A stretch of DNA of 64,000 nucleotides from Promethearchaeia archaeon (GTDB lineage Archaea > Asgardarchaeota > Lokiarchaeia > Sigyniarchaeales > SOKP01): assembly GCA_029856045.1 (NCBI GenBank), contig JAHQWG010000016.1:499921-563920 (forward strand). The letters are read 5' to 3'. The notes under the pieces were generated by a model that did no database searches, had not been told where the DNA came from, and saw only the letters and a program-made list of their open reading frames with translations. The position numbers and the translations under genes are program-made. Positions 28,854 through 30,796 of the stretch are shown in pieces (the stretch's first letter is position 1; the number at the start of each line of letters is the position of its first letter).

Positions 28854-29207
28854 ATGAGTGAAAAAAATATGAGTCAAAAAGTTGAACCAAAAATTGAAAG
28901 TGTTTTAACTGAAATTCAGAAAGTTAAAATTTTCAATTTGGTTAGATATGTTTCAAAAAACACTTGCGAACGAGTTTGTCCTGAAATCTTAGATATGCTT
29001 TTAAATAGTGAAAAAGGAAAGTTAAAAAGCAACTTAGGTAAAACTATATTTCATTTACAGCGAGTAGAAAGACTTAACTCAACTATTGGGTTAGAAAGAT
29101 TAATTGAAGCAGGATTATTAGTTGATACTGATGGACTTCTCAAAATTTTAGAATCATCTGAGCAAGATGCAAAAGACTTAGCAAGTGAAATGAGAGAAAT
29201 TCTCTAA
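28854..29207 (+). CDS. Uncharacterised 117-aa helical protein
   Basis: I do not recognise this family. The protein is predicted almost entirely helical, with two conserved-looking cysteines (NTCERVCPEIL, near 42-46) and a C-terminal IEAGLLVDTDGLLKILE stretch. No membrane segment or signal is visible. It is followed after 84 bp by the UFD1-like gene on the same strand. The downstream gene has its own good SD (AAGGAG), so co-transcription is plausible. It could be a partner of that protein, but there is no direct evidence. The alternative start at the second Met (MSQKVEPK) is possible. Confidence 0.65.
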   Translation: MSEKNMSQKVEPKIESVLTEIQKVKIFNLVRYVSKNTCERVCPEILDMLLNSEKGKLKSNLGKTIFHLQRVERLNSTIGLERLIEAGLLVDTDGLLKILESSEQDAKDLASEMREIL

Positions 29208-29291
29208 TAATAAACAAAATTTTTTTAATTTCTTTTACATTTTTATCTTTAATTTTAGATCTACTATTTAAAAAATTAAAGGAGTATTGAA

Positions 29292-29858
29292 ATGTTTCAG
29301 GGATTTAATGAACAAATGTCAGCTTTAGTTTCACCTGTTAGATTTGATACATTTTCATCTTCTATCTTGTGTGAACTTAAAATAAAAAGTTCTGAGCAAA
29401 TTAATCTTAATAAAGGTGATTTTGTTAAAATTTTTGGAAAAAAAAGGGTAACTGTATGCAAGATTAAAAAAATATCATATGAACATAAAGATAATATTAT
29501 ATGCATTCCATATAAGATAAGAAATAAGTATGGCATTAATCTAAATGATTTCATACGAATTCAAACTTTTCCTAAAAAGACTGCTAAATATGTCAAGATA
29601 ACTCCAGTAGGTTTGGATTTTAAATCCACAAAAAAAATAATTAAATATATTAGAAAAAAGCTTTTAGACATGCCATTGGTAAAAAATGATATAATCTCTA
29701 TTAATATTGGTTTTAGAAGACATATTGATTTCGAAGTTTTGAATATTCAACCCACAAGTCCTGCACAAATATCTACAGGTACTGTTTTTGATATGGTTTT
29801 ATCATATCATCAAGAAAAGAAAATTAAGGAAAAACTAATTTTAACTCTAACTATTTAA
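29292..29858 (+). CDS. UFD1-like / Cdc48 N-domain-like protein (stand-alone)
   Basis: This 188-aa protein has no ATPase module yet reads like the double-psi barrel plus second barrel of UFD1 and the Cdc48 N-domain. Alignment by eye to UFD1 is clear from about residue 70: IICIPYKIRNKYGINLNDF matches the YLP...LLLEEGD region, YVKITPVGLDF matches the KFQPQSVDF region, and LVKNDIISINI...FEVLNIQPTSPAQIS matches the TTGDVIAINY...ELRVLETKP stretch. The Cdc48 N-domain at the left edge of the window shares the same pattern. UFD1 with NPL4 recruits ubiquitylated substrates to Cdc48 in eukaryotes. Here the protein could be a Cdc48 adaptor. It is a homology inference. Confidence 0.72.
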   Translation: MFQGFNEQMSALVSPVRFDTFSSSILCELKIKSSEQINLNKGDFVKIFGKKRVTVCKIKKISYEHKDNIICIPYKIRNKYGINLNDFIRIQTFPKKTAKYVKITPVGLDFKSTKKIIKYIRKKLLDMPLVKNDIISINIGFRRHIDFEVLNIQPTSPAQISTGTVFDMVLSYHQEKKIKEKLILTLTI

Positions 29859-30796
29859 ACATTTTTTAATTGCCAAATTTTAATTGTTTTGTCTAAACTC
29901 CCGCTTATTATATAATATTTAGGAGCTTGAGTTTTGTATTGTTCAATTTTAATTAATTTTATTGATTCAATTTTATCCTCATGAGCAGGAATTTTCAATA
30001 TTTCTTGAACTGGTGAAATTGAATAAATATATAAATTGGTACCTCCTAATATTAAAAAAAATCTTCCATCATTTTGAAATATCTCTAACGAATTTAAAGG
30101 TTCTTCAAGTTGTTTGGAAAATAATAATTTAATATTGTTGATATCCCAGCCAAATATCCCTCCATAATTATCAATTCCAACTAGGAGATTTTGATTCGAT
30201 ATAAATTTAAGATCCATAATTGGACCTTCTCCTCTTAGAAACATTTTCTCTTCATTCATTTTCAAGTCCCATAGTATTATTTTAGAGTCAAAAGTTCCTA
30301 AAAATAACGTTAATTCGTTTTCTGTGCAAGAAATTGAAAGAATAGGAGAATTATATTCATCAATACTTGATAAGATGTGGAAATATTTAAGATCCCAAAA
30401 TATAATTTGACAATCAAATCCAGTCGAAATTAATTGATTCGATTTTTCAAGATAAAAAAGTTTTTGAACATAATCTAAATGACTTTCTAAAGATAAATCA
30501 CAATACAATGTATTTGCCTTATTCTCCCAGATTTTTATAGTCTTATCTAAGCTAGATGAAAAAAGAGTCGAATATTTCTTAATAAACAGTATATCGGTTA
30601 TCCATTTCTTATGTGCATTGATAGAATTTAATAGTTTTGGTGTTCCAATAGAATTATCTTTATTTATATTTAAATCCCAAATTTTTATCGTTTTATCTAA
30701 TGATCCACTATATAAAATCCCCTTTTCTTCATCATAAGCTAAAGAACTTATCCCTAATGCATGTTCCTGTAATTGATAAATTTGAGATAACTCCAT
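29855..30796 (-). CDS. WD40-repeat protein, seven-bladed propeller
   Basis: The 313-aa protein contains seven WD-like repeats: IKIWDLNINK, IKIWENKA, IFWDLKYF, ILWDLKMN, FGWDINNI, LYIYSISP and IKIWQLKN. Several end in the DKTIKIW pattern. Such propellers are protein-interaction scaffolds and are common in eukaryotes but patchy in archaea. No enzymatic motif or signal is visible. Its stop overlaps the convergent UFD1-like gene by 4 nt, and the MTHFR-like gene ends 32 bp upstream on the same strand, suggesting an operon. Partner proteins cannot be named. Confidence 0.9.
   Translation of the reverse strand: MELSQIYQLQEHALGISSLAYDEEKGILYSGSLDKTIKIWDLNINKDNSIGTPKLLNSINAHKKWITDILFIKKYSTLFSSSLDKTIKIWENKANTLYCDLSLESHLDYVQKLFYLEKSNQLISTGFDCQIIFWDLKYFHILSSIDEYNSPILSISCTENELTLFLGTFDSKIILWDLKMNEEKMFLRGEGPIMDLKFISNQNLLVGIDNYGGIFGWDINNIKLLFSKQLEEPLNSLEIFQNDGRFFLILGGTNLYIYSISPVQEILKIPAHEDKIESIKLIKIEQYKTQAPKYYIISGSLDKTIKIWQLKNV

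Follow-up and report, generated by a model that had tools for sequence, protein, structure and literature searches.

A Stand-Alone, Fast-Diverging Cdc48 N-Domain Protein Restricted to One Lokiarchaeal Genus, a Candidate Adaptor

The window, meaning the whole 64,000-nucleotide stretch of DNA analysed here, encodes a 188-aa protein (29292–29858, + strand) that, as judged from sequence profiles, is a complete two-lobe N-domain of the Cdc48/VAT type without ATPase. Our best explanation, to which we assign a probability of about 0.4, is that this protein would be a neofunctionalised Cdc48 N-domain that stands alone and serves as a binding adaptor, an analogue of UFD1 and not a member of its family. 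The assignment draws on the open reading frame, its orthologs and their Ka/Ks ratios, Pfam matches, and matches to the N-domains of p97 and VAT.

A Conserved Gene Confined to One Genus

The reading frame runs from ATG to TAA and is preceded by a Shine-Dalgarno-like AAAGGAG stretch (29275–29285, + strand), with GGAG located 8 nt 5' of the start codon. Each of the five genus genomes contains the gene, with protein identities of 88–90% in three of the other genomes and of 54% in the fourth, where it is cut by the contig edge. Three close relatives preserve the gene order around it, and even the ortholog at 54% identity keeps as neighbours the following gene and the convergent gene for a WD40 beta-propeller protein (29855–30796, − strand), which overlaps the target by 4 bp. 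Ka/Ks values within the genus range from 0.13 to 0.18, also at 54% identity, so it is a real gene under purifying selection, and reading it as a pseudogene was rejected. The short length and fast divergence of the protein could point to a decaying, functionless remnant of a Cdc48 gene, but the frame is open in the five genomes (apart from the contig-edge interruption), the ratios are low and the position is conserved, which makes such a remnant exceedingly improbable.

No ortholog was found outside the genus, either in 228 Asgard genomes or in a profile search of genome contigs with the genus alignment; the latter matched only four members of the genus, and those matches that carry names are Candidatus Lokiarchaeota MAGs. 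A mobile or viral origin was also considered and set aside, as no relative appeared in the viral contigs searched.

The gene stands among unrelated metabolic genes. A conserved gene upstream (28854–29207, + strand), encoding 117 aa without Pfam assignment, was examined as a possible operon partner and rejected, as comparison across the family showed it to be widespread in genomes lacking the target and next to other neighbours; it is probably unrelated in function. This upstream gene shows an unusually low Ks within the genus (0.04–0.08, against about 0.2–0.5 for its neighbours). At the same place, one close relative (G004, locus L033) lacks both the ABC-transporter stretch at about 21.2–25.6 kb of the window and the stretch at 15.3–18.6 kb, so the window carries genus-variable segments.

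Domain Architecture and Fold

Two Pfam domains were matched, CDC48_N on residues 33–92 (E = 1.4e-6; 28.9 bits, under the curated cut-off of 35.1) and CDC48_2 on residues 118–164 (E = 1.6e-4; 21.7 bits, under the cut-off of 22.4), in the same order as in the N-domain of Cdc48, p97 and VAT (PF02359 plus PF02933). The first corresponds to the N-lobe with the double-psi barrel region (29388–29567, + strand), which is strongly diverged by the count of conserved positions given below, and the second to the C-lobe, or Nc region (29643–29783, + strand). A conserved C-terminal tail (residues 175–188, ..IKE.LILTLT..; 29814–29855, + strand) occupies the place of the Cdc48 N-D1 linker and is predicted, at low confidence, to form a strand. 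Searching PDB sequences with the target alone retrieved the p97 N-domain (1.7e-5) and VAT-N (1.5e-4), and with the genus profile p97-N was best, at 1.3e-6. Profile–profile comparison matched the genus to Lokiarchaeal Cdc48 N-domains with E = 1.8e-15 over 151 columns. Thus, the best profile and PDB-sequence matches and all the close relatives of the protein are domains of this type, whereas the scores below the curated cut-offs and the missing D1 and D2 ATPase domains set it apart from Cdc48, p97 and VAT themselves. No AAA domain was detected in the target or in the flanking frames, which places it outside the Cdc48 ATPase family. The sequence-only reading had proposed a stand-alone, ATPase-free protein with a Cdc48-N-type fold, and these matches point to the same conclusion.

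Structure prediction agreed in part. The AlphaFold2 model, built on a shallow alignment, reached a pLDDT of 57.6 and a pTM of 0.44, and removing the Cdc48 row from the alignment lowered the pLDDT to 44.4. With this low-confidence model, Foldseek placed p97-N first (5e-3, probability 1.00), and its top matches were p97-N, PEX1-N, Ufd1 (TM 0.40) and VAT-N (TM 0.44), with probabilities of 0.99–1.00 and EF-Tu mixed in, but nothing was matched at E ≤ 1e-3. Because the model is poor, the fold assignment leans mainly on the sequence profiles, with which the Foldseek outcome agrees, although it would not carry the fold alone.

Divergence from Lokiarchaeal Cdc48a

After the members of the genus, the next-best matches in the 228 Asgard genomes were N-domains of full-length Cdc48 proteins, those of the same order first, some of them cut by contig ends; no stand-alone protein elsewhere in these genomes was closer to the target than the Cdc48a N-domains of its order. 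In profile score, its nearest neighbours are ordinary Lokiarchaeal Cdc48a N-domains. When UFD1 was left out of the tree, the closest row likewise came from a Cdc48a of its own order, with the target on a very long branch. As an alternative to the joining with UFD1 described below, a grouping of the target with Lokiarchaeal Cdc48a was not rejected by the AU test (p = 0.099). An alignment of 26 Lokiarchaeal Cdc48a N-domains has 58 conserved positions, of which the target retains 17, about as low a number as in human p97 (19). This loss is uneven along the protein, as the N-lobe keeps 3 of 34 conserved positions, and the linker and C-lobe together 14 of 24. We favour the view that the protein is a Cdc48 N-domain that has come apart from its ATPase and is diverging fast, with the C-lobe signature preserved and most of the N-lobe signature gone, and we infer as its origin a duplication and detachment followed by fast divergence. 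An attempt to locate the cofactor cleft of p97 in the target was uninformative, as the positions concerned already differ between p97 and archaeal Cdc48a.

The genome encodes three full-length Cdc48 proteins, two of them in 777-aa frames. The third, of 745 aa, begins in the window with its N-terminal 304 aa, including a canonical N-domain (1–912, − strand), which confirms that Cdc48 is also encoded here; by sequence and tree it is a different paralog from the closest relatives of the target.

Relationship to UFD1

The UT3 domain of UFD1 and the Cdc48 N-domain share one common architecture and both bind ubiquitin (PMC4192671), so any N-domain is expected to resemble UFD1. The alignment to UFD1 made by eye in the sequence-only reading reflects a genuine but weak similarity, and ordinary Cdc48 N-domains align with UFD1 just as well. 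For these comparisons, the human UFD1 sequence was checked against PDB entries and that of yeast was read from the same PDB output. With a UFD1 HMM, the target and its orthologs scored 15.5–19.1 bits and Lokiarchaeal Cdc48a up to 16.3; in single-sequence hhalign comparisons the target scored 25.5 and Cdc48a N-domains 25–37, the latter thus ranking higher; and in profile comparisons the target genus (36.6) tied with a deeper Cdc48a set (36.3), with other shallow groups lower.

The target resembles UFD1 in standing alone and in its two-lobe architecture without ATPase, and differs from it in several respects. Neither UFD1_N1 (PF03152) nor UFD1_N2 (PF24842) matched it at E ≤ 1, and it lacks the C-terminal tail that bears SHP motifs. 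The SHP motif (aromatic-x-G-x-G-x-x-L) docks UFD1 on the C-lobe of p97 (PMC5559722), and a regular-expression scan of the target for the Cdc48-binding motifs SHP, VIM and VBM found none. In searches run without a positive control, PF03152 was detected in 0 of the 228 Asgard genomes, and the partner NPL4 (PF05021) in 0 of the 5 genomes of the genus. The target was accordingly rejected as a UFD1 ortholog, on the missing Pfam match, the missing SHP motif and a UFD1 similarity not above that of Cdc48a N-domains.

Several observations would nevertheless fit a true UFD1-family protein, orthologous or ancestral to the adaptor that eukaryotes use for ubiquitin extraction. UFD1 (ATYSKFQPQSPDF) and the target (AKYVKITPVGLDF) have in common a local motif, A.Y.K..P...DF, that was not seen in Cdc48a, a sharing for which we have no explanation at hand beyond chance or convergence. 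In addition, Foldseek matched Ufd1 (1zc1) with probability 1.00 at a TM of 0.40, the genus has ubiquitin-like and E2-like proteins, and UFD1 and the target fell on one side of a branch with 66/89 support. This joining is untrustworthy, because it involves branches with lengths of 2 to 9 changes per column, and a grouping of UFD1 with p97 was not rejected by the AU test either (p = 0.29). Set against the domain, motif and score results and the restriction to one genus, these observations leave membership of the UFD1 family highly improbable. The kinship with UFD1 proposed from the sequence is thus not supported, a distant one being possible given the long-branched trees, and the suggested ancestral position is not supported either, as confinement to a single genus fits an offshoot of one lineage better than a forerunner of UFD1.

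Other Detached Cdc48 N-Domains in Lokiarchaea

Further stand-alone Cdc48 N-domain proteins were found in Lokiarchaea (loci L040–L042, L044, L047 and L050–L057). Twenty-five genomes were examined in detail, partly picked for high match counts, so that frequencies among them are not unbiased. One of these proteins is encoded in the genome of the target itself (G000:C11, L050:2942–3823); it has 293 aa with a C-terminal extension of about 110 aa, and its N-domain shares 77% identity with the one in the Cdc48 at the window start, with which it groups in the tree (100/93). From its sequence, this second solo protein is derived from that paralog. Two genus members encode an N-domain fused to Roadblock/LC7 without ATPase (L051:2548–3510 and L052:2210–3163; PF03259, 8.1e-10 and 2.6e-10, respectively), and one relative carries two N-domains in tandem within 350 aa, which fall among the Cdc48a of their own family in the tree without UFD1.

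At four loci of a sister genus (L053, L055, L056, and L057), the solo N-domain gene lies 3 bp from, or overlaps, a gene for a TPR protein with a conserved N-terminal module (FWGHCSNLQ.W.EN.Y). In addition, a solo gene at L040:203–1341 (− strand) is located 12 bp upstream of a gene for a JAMM/MPN+ protease whose HSH..S..D motif is intact. This arrangement recalls that of UFD1 alongside an MPN protein, though it was found only once; since the pairing is absent from the other best-matching JAMM loci fetched, the adjacency may be due to chance.

These proteins share with the target their detachment from the ATPase. In contrast to it, most score well above the Pfam cut-offs, some carry extras (tandem N-domains, Roadblock, C-terminal extensions) and, where the tree resolves, they come from other Cdc48 lineages. 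Because the solos are scattered over the tree, Cdc48 N-domains in Lokiarchaea probably became detached more than once.

Other architectures were seen as well. A 353-aa protein without ATPase from another Asgard lineage (L059:715–1776) shows three weak CDC48_N repeats, and a protein of about 450 aa (L078:869–2224) combines an N-terminal CDC48_N-like half-domain with a von Willebrand factor A domain; L079 and L080 are similar to the latter in length and in the half-domain match, the part compared.

Possible Role of the Stand-Alone N-Domain

The sequence-only reading had pointed to co-occurrence with ubiquitin-like proteins as informative, and such a protein was indeed present in five of five genomes of the genus, with a strong E2-like protein in three of the five. 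In the genome of the target, the ubiquitin-like protein is encoded at G000:C34:6051–6242 and the E2-like protein at G000:C47:33516–33938. Deprived of its motor, an N-domain amounts to a module for binding, which leaves three readings in play for the target: adaptor, decoy, or binder independent of Cdc48.

In the adaptor explanation, a Cdc48 N-domain gene would have been duplicated, detached from the motor and then diverged fast, its product working as a binding platform like other N-domains. Through the retained C-lobe and the tail, the product may hold another protein, be it a substrate, a partner or a ubiquitin-like tag, and would either pass this ligand on to the cell's Cdc48 unfoldases or keep it from them. 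We favour this explanation for two reasons: detached N-domains recur here together with TPR and Roadblock, which are partners in protein–protein interactions, and the target retains the C-lobe, where on p97 the SHP motif of UFD1 docks; the Roadblock and tandem fusions and the TPR and JAMM pairings of the solo proteins, as read from their genes, would suit such a role. Against it, no operon partner gene and no known Cdc48-binding motif were found for the target, and the N-lobe no longer carries most of the Cdc48a signature; the poor AlphaFold2 model and a descent from Cdc48a that the trees place only tentatively also count against it.

The same missing motif, together with the surrounding metabolic genes, would fit a barrel co-opted for another complex, for nucleic acid or for membranes, off the Cdc48 and ubiquitin pathway. 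Since most of the Cdc48a-conserved N-lobe positions are gone, the protein may bind something else altogether, and it is very basic (pI 9.9, net charge of about +18), among the most basic proteins of the window. However, basic Cdc48 N-domains are also common in these AT-rich genomes and the C-lobe signature was kept, and we regard a Cdc48-independent role as rather unlikely. A motorless N-domain in a cell with three Cdc48 proteins could also act as a decoy, competing with the full-length proteins for cofactors or substrates and thereby dampening Cdc48. A decoy should preserve the shared ligand surface, yet few of the N-lobe positions that Cdc48a proteins share remain in the target, and archaeal Cdc48 cofactors are hardly known; such a regulator seems distinctly unlikely.

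Implications for Cdc48 Adaptors in Asgard Archaea

In eukaryotes, the Cdc48 motor is targeted through separate adaptors, and the core adaptor UFD1 has itself the build of a Cdc48 N-domain. In Asgard archaea, Cdc48 is present alongside ubiquitin-like and E2-like proteins. The open-access papers searched, with subscription papers and preprints mostly outside their scope, yielded no description of stand-alone archaeal Cdc48 N-domains, of UFD1/NPL4 in Asgard archaea or of any Cdc48 adaptor in Asgard archaea. A family survey describes archaea as generally having one Cdc48 type (PMC5070193), and an ESCRT survey reports a VAT-N-like domain on a Vps4-like ATPase of the Halo_adaptin systems (PMC11188069).

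A broader proposal, which we consider unlikely as a whole, is that Lokiarchaea several times evolved Cdc48 adaptors from detached N-domains that occur singly or in tandem, as Roadblock fusions, paired with TPR proteins or adjacent to a JAMM deubiquitinase. These adaptors would serve the ubiquitin-like system as UFD1-NPL4 does in eukaryotes, with the target as a genus-specific member. Our results suggest that the adaptor–motor split used by eukaryotes was made more than once. If this is true, the recurrent detached N-domains would let this evolutionary step be observed in Lokiarchaea as it happens, and would offer concrete proteins for pull-downs.
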